DNA of 64,000 nt, taken from Lichenihabitans psoromatis. GTDB taxonomy: Bacteria > Pseudomonadota > Alphaproteobacteria > Rhizobiales > Beijerinckiaceae. Shown one piece after another: positions 51,796 through 64,000 of the stretch; positions within the stretch are counted from its first letter, which is position 1, and each line of letters begins with the position of its first letter. Position numbers and translations under genes: made by a program. The notes below the pieces were generated by a model that worked only from the letters and a program-made list of their open reading frames with translations, was not told the origin of the DNA and ran no database searches. The DNA lies in NCBI RefSeq assembly GCF_004323635.1, contig NZ_CP036515.1, forward strand, positions 2,171,501 to 2,235,500, read 5' to 3'.

Positions 51796-52527
51796 ATGAC
51801 GATCGATTGGTGGACGCTGACCTTCCAGACCGTCAACGTGGCTGTGCTGATCTGGCTTTTGCAGCGGTTCTTTTGGAAGCCCGTGTCCAGCCTGATCGAG
51901 CAGCGCCGCAGGACCACGCAAGGCATCCTCGACGACGCCGAGACCAAGCAGAAGAACGTCACGGGAGCGCTGGCCGACATAGCGTCGACGCGTGCCGGAT
52001 TCGTGAAGGAGAGCGACGACATCAAGACGGCGGCCCATCTCTCGGCCGAACAGGAACTCGCCGCACTCCTTGCCGATGCCGCTAAGGCCGCCGCGGCCCT
52101 CGACGTGGCTGCGCGAGCCTCGATCGAAAAAGACCGGTCGGCCGCAGCCACCGCCCTGTCGCAGAGAGCCAGCACGCTTGCGGTCGACATCGCGCAGCAT
52201 CTCGCTAGCCGCCTTGACGGTGCAGCCATACAAGCCACCTTTCTCGAGTGGCTCCTCAAGGCCATCGCGGCGATGCCTGAGAACGAGCGCCGCGAAGCGG
52301 CACGGGATGGTTCGTCCCTTGTGGCGATCAGCGCGGCGCCGATCGCGGCGGACGATCAGGAGCGCTACCGTCGGCTGATCGGGCAGTCCTTCGGCTCGCA
52401 TCCAGACATCGTCTTTCAAACAGACGCCACGCTGATTGTCGGCCTCGAGCTTCGCGGGCCTACCCTTGTCTTGAGCAACAGCTGGCGCGCCGACCTCGCG
52501 CAGGTCGCGATGAGCTTGACGCCATGA
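51796..52527 (+). CDS. atpF: N-ATPase subunit b with delta-like C-terminus
   Basis: 243 residues: one N-terminal membrane helix (about 9-25), a long Ala/Lys/Glu-rich coiled coil, and a C-terminal globular part (about 170-243) with [20 protein letters not shown] resembling the delta subunit's end. Such b-delta fusion replaces the missing delta gene. Starts 4 bp after atpE. Confidence 0.9.
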
Positions 52528-54074
52528 TGCAGAACGTTGAGACGCAGGCGGATGCGTGGTTGGAAGCCGCTCGGTCCAAGCTCGGCAGCACACTGCTTGG
52601 TCCACTCGCCGAACAGATCGGCCGGGTGGAGGAGGTCGGCGACGGCATAGCGCTTGTCTCGGGTCTCCCACTCGCACGGTTGGACGAACTGCTCCGCTTC
52701 GGCAAGGGACAGTTCGGCTTCGCGCAGGTTCTGGAGCCGAACCGGATCGGCTGCGTCCTCCTTGACGATGTTGATGGCGTGGAGGCCGGCGACGAGGTGC
52801 ACGGCACGGGCGATGTCGTCCGTGTGCCGGTCGGCCCCGCGCTTCTCGGGCGGGTGGTCGATCCGCTCGGCCGCCCGCTCGACGGCAAGGGGCCGATCGC
52901 CGCCGAGAGCCGGGAGCCGATCGAGCGTTCGGCGCCCGCTATCATCGACCGGGACCTAGTCACAGAGCCGGTTCAAACGGGCTTGATCGTCATCGATGGG
53001 CTTTTCGCGCTTGGGCGAGGCCAACGAGAACTCATCATCGGAGATCGCGCCATCGGGAAGACCACTATCGCTATCGACACGATCATCAATCAGAAGACGA
53101 GCGATATCTTGTGCGTCTATGTCGCAATCGGCCAGAAGAGTTCGAGCATTCGTCGGGCCATCGATGCCATTCAGGCCGGTGGCAACGCCGACCGCTCGGT
53201 CATCGTGGTGGCGGAGGCCGCGAGTTCACCCGGACTGCAGTGGATTGCGCCATTCGCCGCCATGACGATGGCCGAGTATTTCCGCGATCGCGGTCAACAT
53301 GCCTTGATCGTGATCGACGATATGAGCAAGCACGCCGCGACCCATCGCGAGATCGCGCTGCTGACTCGTCAATCGCCTGGTCGCGAGGCCTATCCCGGCG
53401 ACGTTTTCTATGTTCACGCGCGGCTGCTCGAACGAGCCGCGAAACTGTCGAAACAAAAAGGCGGGGGCTCGCTGACCGCGCTACCGATTGCCGAGACCGA
53501 TGCCGGCAATCTCAGCGCCTACATACCCACCAATCTCATCTCGATCACGGACGGTCAGATCGTGCTCGACGCCAAGCTTTTTCGACAAGGGCAAAAGCCG
53601 GCCGTCGATGTCGGTACTAGCGTGAGCCGTGTCGGCGGCAAGACCCAGGCTCACGCGCTGCGCGACGCGGCGAGGACCTTGCGGCTCGACTATGCACAGT
53701 TTCTTGAACTCGAGACGTTCACCCGGTTCGGCGGCATGCCGGATACGCGCGTGCGCGACAGGCTGACGCGAGGCGAACGCATCAGGGCGATCCTCGAACA
53801 GCCTCAGCACTCGCCTCTTCGGTTGGTCGACGAGGTCGGGCTGGTGCTCGCGGTCCAGTTTGGATTGCTGGATGCCATTCCTCTATCGGCACTGGTCGAT
53901 GTCCGAAAGGGACTGCGGAAGGCGCTCGACGAAGGCGCCGGACCCGCCGTCAAGCAGATCGAACAGGAGGGGGAACTGAACGAGGTTAACCGCGACGCTC
54001 TCCGGATCGTTCTCGAACGCTATGTCTCGCGTTGGCTGCCGGCCCAATCTGCAAAGGCGGTGGCGCAGTCATGA
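52524..54074 (+). CDS. atpA: N-ATPase subunit alpha
   Basis: 516 residues. P-loop GDRAIGKTT (instead of the common GDRQTGKT), [18 protein letters not shown] and [13 protein letters not shown] with the Arg finger region [12 protein letters not shown]. Non-catalytic nucleotide subunit. ATGA overlap with atpF. Confidence 0.95.
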
Positions 54075-59105: not shown

Positions 59106-60515
59106 TCAGGCCAGCGCTGGACCATCTGTGAAGCTATGGGCCATGAATTCCAGCGACCGGCGCACCTGCTCGCGACTGGTCGGGCCGCCGAGACAGACGC
59201 GCACGGCCTCGTGCGGCGTTCCGGCCACTGTGAAGACGTCGCTGGCCACAACCCCAATGCCGGTCTCCCGCATGTGGCCGATGAAGGCGGAGCGCGTCCA
59301 CGGCGGCGGCAGATTGATCCAGAGATTGAAGCTGATGGGGTCGGCTTGATACGAGCCAGCCGGCAAGATGGATGTCGCGAGCGACTGCCGGGCCGCGGCT
59401 TCCGCGCGAATGAAGCTCAGGATGGCGTCGGCAGTGCCGTCCTCGATCCAGCGTGTCGCGATCGCGGCTGTCAGAGGCGAGGCCATGACGTTGGCGGTGC
59501 GCAAGGCCGCCATGAAGGGCCAGCCGGACCGCGTGTCGGGTGCCAGGACATAGGCGACACGCAGGCCCGCCCCGATGCATTTGGCGAGCCCAGCGACATG
59601 CCATGTGATATCCGGCACGATCGCGGCGAAGGGCGGGGGGCTCTTGATGGGGATGAAGCCGTAGGCGTCGTCTTCAATGATTGGGACGTTGAAGTGGCGC
59701 GCTGTGGCCGCTATGGCGTCGCGCCGGTCCTTTGGGATCGTCAGCGTGGTCGGATTGTGCAGCGTCGGGTTGAGATAGAGCGCCTTCGGCTTCAAGGCCC
59801 GGCAGGCGTCGGCGAAGGCATCGGGGTCGATCCCGTCGCGGTCGATCGGGAGCCCGACGAGTGACACCCCGAGTTGCGCCGCGATGGCGCGGGCGCCGGG
59901 GTAGGTGATGGCCTCGCACAGGATCACCTCGCCGCGTTGCGCCAGCAGCCCAAAGATTCCCAGCAGGGCGGGATGGGCGCCAGGCGTCACGAAGATACGG
60001 TCTTGCGTCGGCACCAACGCACGACGGCCGAGCCAACTCGACGCCGCGTCCTTGTCGGCGGGCGCTCCTCCAAATCCCTGGTAGCGCAGCAGTCCCATCA
60101 CGTCCTGCGAGATGGCGGCGATGCCCTCCTGCATGCGCCGCAGCAGCGCCGGATCGTTCTGCTCGGGGGGCAGATTCATCGACAGATCGACCATCAACGG
60201 CCGAGCGCTCGATCGCCCGATCGGAGAGGAGGCGAAAGCGCGTCCGGCGACCGACGTCCCTTGGCCCACCTTGGCGATAACGAGCCCGCGTTTTTGCGCT
60301 TCGCCGTAACCGCGCGCCACCGTCGTGAAATCGATGCCCAGCCGAGCCGCGAGCTTGCGCTGCGGCGGGAGGCGGTCGGCGGTCGACAGACGGCCCGCCA
60401 CGATGTCGGAGGCGATGGCGTCTGCAATCGCTAAATAGCGCGGCTTGTCGCTCTGATCGAGGTTGGGCAGCCAATCTGTCATGCCGCTCTCATGCGGCAG
60501 AGCCCCATCCATCAC
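59106..60515 (-). CDS. MocR-type regulator (GntR HTH fused to aminotransferase-like domain)
   Basis: 469 residues. N-terminal GntR winged helix (about 22-90: YLAIADAIASDIVAGRL, LPPQRKLAARLG, TTVARGYGEAQKRGLV) joined to a class I aminotransferase fold with the PLP-binding Lys in GLAKCIGAGLRVAY and the DDAYGFI motif. Such PdxR/MocR proteins act as PLP- or amino-compound-sensing regulators. It is divergent from the Nit1C genes, and a perfect inverted repeat begins 12 bp from its start. Confidence 0.92.
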   Translation of the reverse strand: MMDGALPHESGMTDWLPNLDQSDKPRYLAIADAIASDIVAGRLSTADRLPPQRKLAARLGIDFTTVARGYGEAQKRGLVIAKVGQGTSVAGRAFASSPIGRSSARPLMVDLSMNLPPEQNDPALLRRMQEGIAAISQDVMGLLRYQGFGGAPADKDAASSWLGRRALVPTQDRIFVTPGAHPALLGIFGLLAQRGEVILCEAITYPGARAIAAQLGVSLVGLPIDRDGIDPDAFADACRALKPKALYLNPTLHNPTTLTIPKDRRDAIAATARHFNVPIIEDDAYGFIPIKSPPPFAAIVPDITWHVAGLAKCIGAGLRVAYVLAPDTRSGWPFMAALRTANVMASPLTAAIATRWIEDGTADAILSFIRAEAAARQSLATSILPAGSYQADPISFNLWINLPPPWTRSAFIGHMRETGIGVVASDVFTVAGTPHEAVRVCLGGPTSREQVRRSLEFMAHSFTDGPALA

Positions 60516-60526
60516 AAGTCATCCCT

Positions 60527-60551
60527 CATTCAATATTGACCGTATTGAATG
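60527..60551. promoter_or_regulatory. Perfect inverted repeat, candidate MocR operator
   Basis: CATTCAATA (60527-60535) and TATTGAATG (60543-60551) with the 7-bp spacer TTGACCG. It sits 12 bp upstream of the MocR start and 265 bp before nitB. The position suits autoregulation and possible control of the divergent cluster. Confidence 0.65.
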
Positions 60552-60815
60552 TATGTCGGGACGTGGCAACAAAACAACTCAATTTTGTGATTAGTCTGAG
60601 GTGTGGTGTCGTCCGGAGCGATATGTCGATCCTGAGAGCAAAAAACGTAAGCAAAGCGAGCGAATCCGATGCAGAAAGGTCCGATTGCCTCCAGCCGTCT
60701 GGCCTCGAAATGTCTGTATTTTAAGCTTGCGATTGATGGCACAATTGACGAACTTTGTATGGATGGAGAAGAGCAGTTTCGCCGGCTCTCATCCACAGCA
60801 TAGAAAGGACGAGCC
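60552..60815 (+). other. Upstream region of the nit operon
   Basis: No gene. A canonical sigma-54 box (TGGCAC-N5-TTGC) was looked for: TGGCAC occurs near 60738 but is not followed by TTGC at the right distance. Short overlapping frames here are spurious. Confidence 0.4.
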
Positions 60816-61298
60816 ATGCCCGCCGTACAAAAGCCCGCCCATGAAAAGGGAGATTATTTCGTCGATTACGAAGAGAAGGTCTTCGAGGACGTGAAAGCCG
60901 AGCCCGGTCAAAAGGCCCTGGTGACCTTCCATACGGTGGCGTTCGAAGGCTCGATCGGTTTCGTCAATTTGCTGCAAGCGACGCGGCTGCTGCGCAAGGG
61001 CTTCGAAACCTCGGTTCTGCTCTATGGCCCCGGCGTCACGCTCGGGATCCAGCGCGGCTTCCCGAAGATCGGCGATGAGGCTTTTCCGGGCCACCTGAAC
61101 ATGAACAATCAGCTCACGAAATTCATGGACGAGGGTGGCAAGGTCTACGCGTGCCGCTTCGCCCTCCAGGCCCTCTACGGACATGGCGAACCCTCGCTGA
61201 TCCCCGGCATTCGGCCGATCGCCCCGACTGACGTGCTCGATCTCATGCTGATCCACAACCGGGATGGCGCCTTCATGGTCCACACCTGGACCGTCTGA
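60816..61298 (+). CDS. nitB: Nit1C protein NitB (MSMEG_0572/Sll0783 family)
   Basis: 160 residues with AAGGAC ahead of the ATG. Matches the Sll0783/MSMEG_0572 family ([51 protein letters not shown]), a DsrE-like small protein of unknown activity that is always the first structural gene of Nit1C clusters. In Synechocystis it is linked to nitrogen-starvation response. Confidence 0.88.
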
Positions 61299-61327
61299 GG
61301 CGTCACACCGCTTAAAGGAGAACAGCC

Positions 61328-62374
61328 ATGTCCGGAGCCCGGATGGTGCGCGTCGCGGCAGTGCAGATCGCGCCAGACCTCGACAGTCGCGATGGAACCC
61401 TTGATCGCGTTCTCGCCGCCATAGCCGAGGCCGCCGGCAAGGGGGTCGAACTGATCGTCTTCCCCGAGACGTTCGTCCCCTGGTACCCGTATTTCTCCTT
61501 CGTCCACCCGCCGGTCATGACGGGCGCCGAGCACATACGCCTTTACGAGAATGGCGTGATGGTGCCAGGGCCGGTGACCGAGGCCGTCGCTGCGGCGGCA
61601 CGGCGGCACACCATGGTGGTCGCGCTCGGCGTCAACGAGCGTGACCACGGCTCCCTCTATAACGCTCAACTGATCTTCGATGCCGACGGCACCCTAAAGC
61701 TCAAGCGCCGCAAGCTGACCCCGACCTTTCACGAACGGATGATCTGGGGACAAGGGGACGGCGCTGGCCTCAAGGTGGTCGATACGGCCGTAGGCCGCGT
61801 CGGAGCGCTGGCGTGCTGGGAGCACTATAACCCGCTCGCGCGCTACGCCTTGATGGCGCAGCACGAGGAAATCCACGTCGCACAATTTCCCGGGTCGCTG
61901 GTCGGTCCCATCTTCGCCGACCAGATCGAGGTGACGATCCGCCACCACGCGCTGGAAAGCGGCTGCTTCGTTGTCAATGCCACGGGGTGGCTCACCGAAG
62001 ATCAGATCGCTCGCATTTGTCCCGAGGAAAAACTGCGGAAGGCGCTGCGCGGTGGCTGCATGACGGCTATCGTCTCGCCCGAAGGCGCTCATGTGGTTCC
62101 GCCCCTGACGCAAGGCGAGGGCTTGCTCGTGGCCGACCTCGACATGGGCCTCATCGTCAAACGCAAGCGGATGATGGACTCGGTCGGCCACTACGCCCGC
62201 CCCGAGCTGATGAGCCTGCTGCTCGACCAGCGGCCCGCGACCCCAATGCACATGACCACCGCCCCGCAAACCTCCGCACCCGGGAACCCCGCCGATGAAC
62301 GCGATGATACCGACCGAGTTGGCGACGGAGCGTCTGATCAACGAATTGCAGTCGTTCGGAGTGCGGCTAGTTGA
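61328..62374 (+). CDS. nitC: Nit1C nitrilase NitC
   Basis: 348 residues behind AAAGGAG. Catalytic triad E47 (IVFPETF), K129 ([10 protein letters not shown]) and C163 ([15 protein letters not shown]). By family it hydrolyses nitriles; in Pseudomonas the Nit1C enzyme is required for growth on cyanide as nitrogen source. Its last 80 bp overlap the next gene, an unusually long overlap in this otherwise compact operon. Confidence 0.92.
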
Positions 62375-63419
62375 TCCCAAGGCAGGGGCCGACAGCCGCC
62401 GCGGGGGCGCCGGACCGTCGGATCACAAGGCGCTCACGATCGACGGCATGACCGTCATGGTGCCGGTGCATACGGCTCCCGCTTTCGAGAGCCCGTATGT
62501 CGCCGAGAAGCCCGGCCCCGATGGGCGCGGCCGCATCACGCGGGATGGCATCACGGTCGCAGATTTTGGCCTGCCGTCCCGTCCGCGCTTCTACGATCTG
62601 TCGACCTCGGACGGCATTCCTTACTCGAAAATTGCGGTGCTGCACGGGCGCGACGTGCTGGCGACGACCGTGCTGCAGACCTGCATCCGGTACCAGAGCC
62701 GCACCAAGACCTGCCAGTTCTGCGCTATCGGCCAATCGCTCGCGGCCGGCCGCACCATCGAGCGCAAGACGCCGGCGCATCTGGCCGAGGTTGCCAAGGC
62801 GGCGGTCGAACTCGACGGCGTCAAACACATGGTGATGACGACGGGAACGCCGCCTGGCAACGATCGGGGTGCCGCCATTCTGGCCGAGAGCGCCGCCGCC
62901 GTGAAGGCCGCCGTCGCCCTGCCGATCCAGGTGCAATGCGAGCCGCCGGACGACGACATCTGGTTCGAGCGCATGCGCGATGCGGGCGCTGATGCGCTCG
63001 GCATGCACCTTGAGGCCGTGACGCCGGAGGTCCGCGCCCGGATCATGCCCGGGAAAGCGCAGGTGTCGATCGCGCGATATCTCTCGGCCTTCGCGGCCGC
63101 CGTGCCTGTCTTCGGGCGGGGCCAGGTGTCGACCTATATCCTCGCGGGCCTCGGCGACACCGTCGAGGACATCCTGTCGATCAGTAAGACGCTCGTGGCG
63201 CTCGGGGTTTACCCCTTCGTCGTGCCCTTCGTGCCGATCTCCGGGACGCCGCTCGAAAGTCATCCGGGGCCCGATGCCGCCTTCATGCATGCCATCTTGA
63301 AGCCGCTCGCCACGATGCTGGTCGCGAGCGGCATGACGGCGGCCGACGTCAAGGCTGGATGCGGCAAGTGCGGCGCCTGTTCGGCGCTGTCGACCTACGA
63401 GCGAAGGCTGACCGCATGA
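62295..63419 (+). CDS. nitD: Nit1C radical SAM protein NitD (MSMEG_0568 family)
   Basis: 374 residues. The cluster-binding cysteines are C130, C140 and C143, i.e. C-x9-C-x2-C (TCIRY then TCQFCAIG) rather than C-x3-C-x2-C. Conserved blocks [30 protein letters not shown] and [17 protein letters not shown] follow. A second Cys set GCGKCGAC lies at the C-terminus and could hold another cluster. Reaction unknown; related to biotin/lipoyl-synthase-like radical SAM enzymes. Confidence 0.9.
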
Positions 63420-63958
63420 TCTTCGATCCCGTCCGGCCCTTCGTGTCGAGCGCCTTTCACATCAAATTCGCGGCCGACGCCTGGGAGCATCGCGGTGCGG
63501 CAGCTCTGCGCCGCCAAGTCTTCTGCGCCGAGCAGGGGCTGTTCGGGACCGATGACCGCGATGCGCTCGACGAGGTCGCGATCCCGATCGTGGCGCTGTC
63601 GTCCTATACGGTCGTGCCCGATGCGGTCGTCGGCACGGTGCGGATCCATGAGGCCGAGCCTGGGACGTGGTGGGGATCGCGCCTCGCGGTTGCCGCAGAC
63701 CATCGTCGGGTCGGAGCGCTCGGGGCCTCGCTCATCCGTCTCGCGGTGTCCTCCGCCCACGCCCGCGGCTGCACGAAATTCGTGGCCCATGTGCAAAGCC
63801 AGAACGCGCTGCTGTTCCAGCGGCTGCATTGGGAGATCGTCGGCGAGATCGACCTGCACGGCCTTCCGCACAAAAAGATGCGCGCCGATCTCGCCTTCTA
63901 CCCGCCGTTTGCGACCCCGGAATCCGGCTTTCTCGCGCTGCCCCGGCGAGCGGCCTGA
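63416..63958 (+). CDS. nitE: Nit1C GNAT acetyltransferase NitE (MSMEG_0567/Sll0786 family)
   Basis: Start at 63416 (MIFDPVRPF) overlaps the nitD stop by 4 bp (ATGA). 180 residues with GNAT fold; acetyl-CoA loop RLAVAADHRRVGALGASLI and FQRLHWEIVG. Early motif RRQVFCAEQGLF as in autoinducer-synthase-like GNATs. Substrate unknown. Confidence 0.88.
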   Translation: MIFDPVRPFVSSAFHIKFAADAWEHRGAAALRRQVFCAEQGLFGTDDRDALDEVAIPIVALSSYTVVPDAVVGTVRIHEAEPGTWWGSRLAVAADHRRVGALGASLIRLAVSSAHARGCTKFVAHVQSQNALLFQRLHWEIVGEIDLHGLPHKKMRADLAFYPPFATPESGFLALPRRAA

Positions 63959-64000
63959 TGCTGGATGGACGCGCCTTCGCCGCCATCGCGGCCACACTGA
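63958..64000 (+). CDS. nitF: Start of NitF (AIR-synthase-like), cut by window end
   Basis: ATG at 63958 overlaps the nitE stop (TGATG). Only 14 codons are visible (MLDGRAFAAIAATL). Assignment rests on the fixed gene order of Nit1C clusters, where a PurM/AIR-synthase-related gene follows the GNAT. Confidence 0.55.
   Translation, partial: MLDGRAFAAIAATL

Follow-up and report, generated by a model that had tools for sequence, protein, structure and literature searches.

The Nit1C gene cluster was described in 2005 (Podar et al. 2005, PMC1199592), and its published Pseudomonas representatives are accompanied by a Fis/sigma-54 regulator, NitA (PMC11049912). The window analysed here, a 64,000-nucleotide stretch of the genome of the alphaproteobacterium Lichenihabitans psoromatis, carries such a cluster at its right edge, where it is transcribed divergently from a gene for a MocR-type regulator. 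Its profile matches identify a complete Nit1C operon (nitBCDEF, a glycosyltransferase gene, nitGH and a gene for an LnmK-like acyltransferase) that has a MocR regulator of its own. It adds a new member to an established type of cluster, in which the pairing with MocR is usual among the relatives examined. All seven genes of the 2005 description are found here, with nitB to nitG in order and nitH after nitG, and a glycosyltransferase gene is inserted as reported there for Burkholderia and Rubrivivax; it differs in having an LnmK-like gene after nitH and a divergent MocR gene, which the available part of that description does not mention (PMC1199592). The nit1C cluster of Pseudomonas pseudoalcaligenes/oleovorans CECT5344 (PMC11049912, PMC8567248) likewise has the same core genes, the nitrilase NitC and a divergent regulator, but that regulator is the sigma-54 type NitA where a MocR is found here, and the sigma-54 signature is missing from the window's lineage (below).

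Among described MocR proteins, the ectoine regulators EnuR and EhuR (PMC8739950, PMC6677901) resemble the window protein in joining a GntR winged helix-turn-helix (wHTH) domain to an aminotransferase domain with a pyridoxal 5'-phosphate (PLP) lysine, and EnuR acts as a repressor (PMC8739950). EhuR is also the best NCBIfam match of the window protein, yet its score of 417.6 bits is below the curated cut-off of 480 and identity as an EhuR/ectoine regulator was rejected; moreover, Nit1C MocRs separate from 20 other class MocRs in a tree and have nine near-clade-specific positions (below). A second comparison is offered by BN5_1899, the MocR of the CECT5344 cio-nit4 region, which is likened to the window protein by description (MocR-type, tied to a nitrilase and to the cyanide response) but controls cio/nit4 and not nit1C; loss of the cio MocR is reported to make the cio proteins constitutive, given there as unpublished data (PMC8567248). 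In the accessible parts of PMC8567248, PMC11049912, PMC5333837, PMC6368324, PMC13021748 and PMC10138600, the MocR or GntR protein named is that of the cio cluster, a different GntR protein of CECT5344 or the product of a gene lying outside nit1C, or else the name occurs in the title of a cited work. According to a paper on MocR regulons, direct-repeat operators are frequent but not universal in the MocR subfamily (PMC5320631), and its main text does not mention nitrilase. A MocR beside a mostly sigma-54 promoter was not found for Nit1C in the open literature searched.

Cluster content and the regulator that accompanies it

Calls of nit genes were NCBIfam profile matches over curated cut-offs (Table 1). 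The first-pass annotation, made from the window alone, had read the order nitB-nitC-nitD-nitE-nitF as Nit1C, and the family matches are indeed all over their cut-offs. Its nitF was correctly named, although with just 43 bases in the window that call was an extrapolation; the gene runs to L007:7936 (TIGR04049, 453 bits, cut-off 321; L007 is the locus stretch that reaches past the window's right edge). The same annotation had proposed looking further right for nitG and nitH and would have yielded to an absence of nitF through nitH, and all three are found there: after nitF, positions L007:7936-11577 hold the glycosyltransferase gene (TIGR04047, 481 bits, cut-off 260), nitG (TIGR04042, 130 bits, cut-off 80), nitH, a flavin oxidoreductase gene at one cluster end (TIGR04046, 614 bits, cut-off 498), and the LnmK-like gene. 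The nitB, nitC, radical SAM, GNAT, AIR-synthase-like and nitG genes are collinear on one strand in the Nit1C order. The best solved relative of NitC is 3wuy (E 2.6e-149), and the start of nitD is uncertain, since its profile begins at residue 16 and the open reading frame overlaps the end of nitC. The nearest named relative in our scans is Lichenifustis flavocetrariae (locus L017; nitB 95%, MocR 87%), and comparison of the ten genes with this sister locus gave ratios of nonsynonymous to synonymous differences (pN/pS) of 0.05-0.35, as expected for genes kept by selection.

MocR is the usual partner of Nit1C in the sampled alpha-, beta- and several gammaproteobacteria. A nitB scan of named species, from which the best 80 of at least 441 confirmed loci were taken (a set that leans to close relatives), showed a MocR gene upstream of nitB in 73 of the 80, divergent in 72; the seven that lack one comprise six loci of cyanobacteria and one of a Verrucomicrobiota bin, and in two of these (L035 and L089) the sequence before nitB is just 676 and 721 bases long, so that absence there says little. 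A phylum sample of 398 genomes gave 16 with nitB over the cut-off, the window's genome counted, and 15 of these have MocR, while the remaining cluster (L146, of genome G603) has a divergent gene for a 648-amino-acid sigma-54 activator. The genus of G603, taken to be Pseudomonas, has nitB in 8 of 119 genomes; NitA is present in seven of these eight clusters (that of G603 itself and six at 74-80%), MocR in none, and one cluster (L197) has neither in the stretch read. Among plasmid-borne clusters, that of Acinetobacter has NitA (58%), those of Pantoea and Agrobacterium a divergent MocR, and that of Acetobacter a MocR on the same strand; neither regulator was found in the Rhodococcus and Synechococcus plasmid clusters. 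MocR and NitA were not seen together in any cluster among the loci sampled, and a tblastn search of L007 with the L146 NitA gave no match. The idea that MocR is an unusual replacement of NitA was rejected, as MocR is the common state in both samples (73/80 and 15/16). Thus the contrast with the Fis-like activator of Pseudomonas that the first-pass annotation drew is real, but the MocR is no departure, being the commoner state in the sample; and MocR stands "instead" of NitA itself, but not of sigma-54 in general, since a -24/-12 element precedes nitB in most clusters of either kind (below). In the plasmid collection as a whole 515 records matched nitB; going by the first word of the organism name, 374 are from Klebsiella and 30 from Escherichia.

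The 95 Nit1C-linked MocRs form one clade together with one intruder, a protein of genome G102 (Shimodaira-Hasegawa-like approximate likelihood ratio test (SH-aLRT) support 99), in a quick IQ-TREE tree with 20 other class MocRs and a midpoint root; several long end branches, the quick tree type and the rooting leave its inner order unsure. When MocR matches were ranked by bits in 385 class genomes, with at most four candidates scored per genome, the ten strongest came from the same ten genomes that have nitB over the cut-off. In the window protein the GntR wHTH domain (PF00392) spans residues 27-89 and the class I/II aminotransferase domain (PF00155) residues 108-453, and an AlphaFold model (pLDDT 86.8), used for the fold match alone, gave GabR (4n0b) as best match by E-value. 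Residues K312, D282, Y285, N254 and R439, which we take from the aminotransferase fold to be the Schiff-base lysine, the PLP contacts and the substrate carboxylate arginine, are kept in 95/95 of the Nit1C-linked MocRs; since between 18 and 20 of the 20 other MocRs have them too, they point to PLP and not to any particular ligand. Nine further positions (E118, R144, F148, N249, G315, A316, V343, F396 and G444) are nearly fixed in the clade and rare outside it, and several of them are near the PLP residues in sequence. The predicted pocket thus fits an amino-acid-like ligand but names none, and the amino acid or PLP adduct of a nitrile that the first-pass annotation put forward as inducing signal would be compatible with the conserved lysine and arginine. 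As separate observations, the Nit1C MocR of L068, a record titled Frankia sp. RB7, branches inside Bradyrhizobium, and that assembly may be mislabelled or contaminated; and one of the two Nit1C loci titled Paraburkholderia elongata has its MocR match in two tblastn pieces (L062:8295-9900, a 409-amino-acid reading), possibly a broken copy.

Promoter and repeat elements between mocR and nitB

Of 94 MocR-nitB intergenic regions, 87 have the element TGGCAC-N5-TTGC, the -24/-12 signature of sigma-54 promoters, on the nitB strand when one mismatch is tolerated (65 exact), against a mean of 1.4 and a maximum of 5 of 94 in shuffled sequences; the element ends 47-131 bp before nitB. This count omits the same-contig identical duplicates L112, L114, L115, L136 and L142, as well as L033 (4.4-kb insert) and L070 (same strand); L109, which has an exact element and one half-site, was also left out though not a duplicate, and its inclusion gives 88/95. 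With one mismatch (TCGC) the element is found in all eight clusters of the G603 genus and on the Acinetobacter plasmid, and at that threshold there is none on the Agrobacterium and Acetobacter plasmids. Even at two mismatches none was found in the window, L017, L018, L119 or L143.

Motif and tree work used 93 intergenic regions and 95 tree rows, L062 also being left out; the regions were divided into an alpha clade (n=49, including L040, a Proteobacteria bin, and L068, titled Frankia) and the other loci (n=44, including L063, titled Alphaproteobacteria). Direct repeats of the form ATTGAHYGYAT, 11-12 bp apart, are present in most of the relatives' intergenic regions. On the nitB strand the core TTGAMTGYA occurs at 63 sites in 35 of the 49 alpha-clade loci (0.3 in shuffles; 6 on the opposite strand), and pairs of it with one mismatch allowed have spacing peaks at 12 bp (23) and 11 bp (6), while in the other 44 loci TTGATYGCA is the prevailing form of the box and 31 pairs have a spacing of 11 bp. 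When one mismatch is allowed, 31/49 alpha-clade and 33/44 other loci have a pair of half-sites at a spacing of 9-13 bp (shuffles, 0.12 and 0.08). Many sites cluster at set distances from the promoter: where a -24 element is present, 12 of the 58 TTGAMTGYA sites are 48-51 bp and 21 are 60-63 bp before it, the rest being nearer or further away with many near MocR, and exact half-sites in the other 44 loci fall chiefly at 25-26 bp (25 sites) and 35-37 bp (9 sites) upstream of this element. The two layouts thus differ by 22-25 bp, about two helical turns. A search of 17 alphaproteobacterial genomes for the 12-bp pair at one mismatch gave seven matches, all in the nit intergenic region, and none for the reversed control.

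In the window and its sister L017 the sigma-54 signature is, to judge from these searches, lost and the repeats are kept. The window has a pair of abutting half-sites close to the MocR start codon (Table 1), L017 carries TTGATCGGA-TTGAATGTA at the same place, and the 9-bp spacing of these half-sites is rare across the set. Since the promoter before nitB has lost the signature, sigma-54 control is not expected there despite the presence of rpoN and ntrC in the genome; a sigma-70 scan before nitB in the window found no site. Finally, an NtrC-type palindrome is present in 23 of the 44 loci outside the alpha clade (0.3 in shuffles), mostly about 150 bp upstream of the -24 element, and half of the six cyanobacterial loci (3) have the NtcA-type motif GTA-N8-TAC before nitB, its position varying from locus to locus; the motif also occurs once in L146.

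Table 1. Predicted features of the Nit1C locus (window positions unless a locus is given; scores are for NCBIfam profiles)
Feature	Position	Strand	Details
Source of the window	G000:C1:2171501-2235500		within a 4.84-Mb genome
MocR-type regulator gene	59106..60515	-	469 amino acids, GTG start, divergent from nitB; PF00392 + PF00155
Candidate MocR operator	60536..60553	+	abutting half-sites TTGACCGTA and TTGAATGTA, 9 bp apart, 20 bp before the MocR start codon
Stretch conserved between window and L017	60711..60764	+	ends in TATGGAT; probable nitB promoter region
Weaker candidate half-site	60733..60741	+	TTGATGGCA (1 mismatch), inside the stretch conserved with L017
Decayed or absent sigma-54 promoter	60737..60751	+	TGGCAC present, -12 TTGC missing; no match at ≤2 mismatches
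nitB	60816..61298	+	160 amino acids; MSMEG_0572/Sll0783 family; TIGR04044 284 bits, cut-off 110
nitC	61328..62374	+	348 amino acids; Nit6803-type (subfamily 1) nitrilase; TIGR04048 575 bits, cut-off 503
nitD	62295..63419	+	MSMEG_0568-family radical SAM protein; TIGR04043 603 bits, cut-off 304
nitE	63416..63958	+	MSMEG_0567/Sll0786 GNAT N-acetyltransferase; TIGR04045 227 bits, cut-off 68
nitF (AIR-synthase-like)	63958..64000	+	first 43 bases in the window; ATG at 63958 overlaps the nitE stop
LnmK/Pnap_2097-family gene	L007:10687-11577		last of the operon; TIGR04099 310 bits, cut-off 125

Two neighbouring features were also recorded. Just past the cluster, L007:12360-14059 holds a divergent pair of genes for an HD-domain protein, which scores 60 bits with the cyanamide-hydratase family (below the cut-off of 110), and a GlxA-type DJ-1/AraC regulator; a tie of this pair to Nit1C was considered and the pair is treated as unrelated, as the HD protein matched no other locus and the GlxA protein two others at about 30%. 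Positions 52524-54074 of the window hold a gene for the F0F1 ATP synthase alpha subunit (NF009884, 738 bits, cut-off 554), where the alternate-ATPase alpha model scores under its cut-off.

Regulation and function of the cluster

We think it probable, with some reserve, that a dedicated PLP-dependent MocR repressor senses a pathway amine and is, in most relatives, stacked on nitrogen-limitation control. A MocR dimer with PLP on Lys312 would bind the ATTGAHYGYAT repeats and repress both mocR and nit until a pathway metabolite with an amino and a carboxylate group, perhaps an amino nitrile-derived compound or an amino acid made from it, formed an aldimine with the PLP and MocR let go. For most of the sampled proteobacteria, the promoter under this gate would be of the sigma-54 type and would depend on an activator that responds to nitrogen limitation, with NtrC as the predicted one in Paraburkholderia and its close kin; in the window's lineage, where the sigma-54 element is lost, the promoter probably answers to MocR without sigma-54. 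The hut operons, with HutC plus CbrB/NtrC, have a GntR-type repressor stacked on a sigma-54, nitrogen-controlled promoter and share this with the proposed nit design, but HutC is without an aminotransferase domain and the hut pathway is unrelated to Nit1C.

The relatives' repeats are upstream of the promoter, a position that suits an activator or helper better than a blocker, and activation therefore stays a serious rival to repression: liganded MocR might aid RNA polymerase at nitB in the way that GabR acts on gabT, and GabR, the best fold match of the window protein, is an autorepressor and activator according to its entry title. On the other hand, MocR is not one of the AAA+ activators that sigma-54 promoters require. 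Both EnuR (PMC8739950) and the CECT5344 cio MocR (PMC8567248) also behave as repressors, and on these points together we judge an activator role unlikely, though it deserves to be kept in view. It is far less credible that MocR is a bystander that regulates only itself or something else and has no control over nit. Such a reading draws on the clade MocR of G102, which has no nit genes in the surrounding 19 kb read, on the 22 of 58 TTGAMTGYA sites that are far from the -24 element, many of them near the MocR start, and on the fact that a functional role for MocR is deduced from sequence; it has to contend with a linkage of MocR and nit across three classes, with the grouping of these MocRs in one clade, with repeats at set distances from the nitB promoter, and with pair matches confined to the nit locus in 17 genomes.

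Several observations weigh against a MocR repressor gating a nitrogen-controlled promoter, including the G102 protein just mentioned. The loci are related and not independent, and the 80 are the best nitB matches. The window itself, without a sigma-54 element and with its own repeats 9 bp apart, is fitted less well by the model than its relatives are, and in L119 and L143 the nitB strand has neither the element nor any half-site. No pair match was obtained in ten of the 17 genomes searched, the window's included, and the beta-type pair gave three matches in seven genomes, two at nit and one elsewhere. Half-sites are also above shuffles on the opposite strand (13 and 22, versus 82 and 57 on the nitB strand), and the MocR-facing strand has a one-mismatch sigma-54-like element in 17/94 regions, none of them exact, which is above shuffles and unexplained. 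The NtrC palindromes come mostly from one near-relative group, Paraburkholderia and near relatives, and are not supported as a feature of the alpha clade, where they are present in 2/49 loci (15/49 at one mismatch, versus a shuffle mean of 9 and maximum of 16). Binding of MocR to the repeats, its control of nit expression and the kind of effector are all predicted from sequence, and repression of nit by MocR is argued by analogy with EnuR and the cio MocR alone.

What the pathway does bears on the effector, and one proposal, compatible with either repression or activation by MocR, is that the cluster serves mainly for cyanide or nitrile assimilation and that MocR senses a cyanide-derived cyanohydrin or cyanoamino acid. 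In CECT5344, growth on cyanide needs nitC, and both 3-cyanoalanine and cyanide-containing residue induce NitC along with other Nit proteins (PMC11049912, PMC8567248, PMC5333837). The radical SAM, AIR-synthase-like, glycosyltransferase, GNAT and LnmK-like genes nevertheless exceed a degradation route, and both the methylmalonyl-CoA mutase gene that adjoins the LnmK-like gene in loci L057, L086 and L033 and the AMP-binding gene after nitH in Pantoea and Acetobacter look biosynthetic; we would lean against assimilation as the main function while regarding it as a possible one. An acylated amino compound as the product of Nit1C is a live idea suggested by this gene content. LnmK-like proteins were found in 14 of the 80 loci, and in Ralstonia sp. 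NFACC01 (L033:4150-10001) MocR and nitB are separated by genes for an additional GNAT protein, an LnmK-like protein and a methylmalonyl-CoA mutase.

A wider scheme, which we offer tentatively, would treat the standard proteobacterial Nit1C cluster as a biosynthetic pathway that nitrogen limitation induces and that makes an acylated amino compound, with the intergenic region as a two-key switch. Nitrogen starvation would be read by a sigma-54 key (NtrC or similar), and a pathway amine by an orthologous MocR bound to direct repeats on one helical face of the promoter; the MocR key would have been replaced by NitA in the Pseudomonas/Acinetobacter type and the sigma-54 key dropped in the Lichenifustis lineage.

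The role of most Nit1C genes has been open since the 2005 description, and the comparison of promoters among relatives suggests a testable way in which the cluster is switched on. The PLP pocket conserved across three classes is a direct handle on this question, as the releasing amine is likely to be a pathway metabolite. The shared sigma-54 element would, if true, link proteobacterial Nit1C to nitrogen limitation, a link at which the Nit1C family names (nitrogen starvation response) already hint in the case of cyanobacteria, and the loss of this element in one lineage whose genes are still under selection is a natural experiment.

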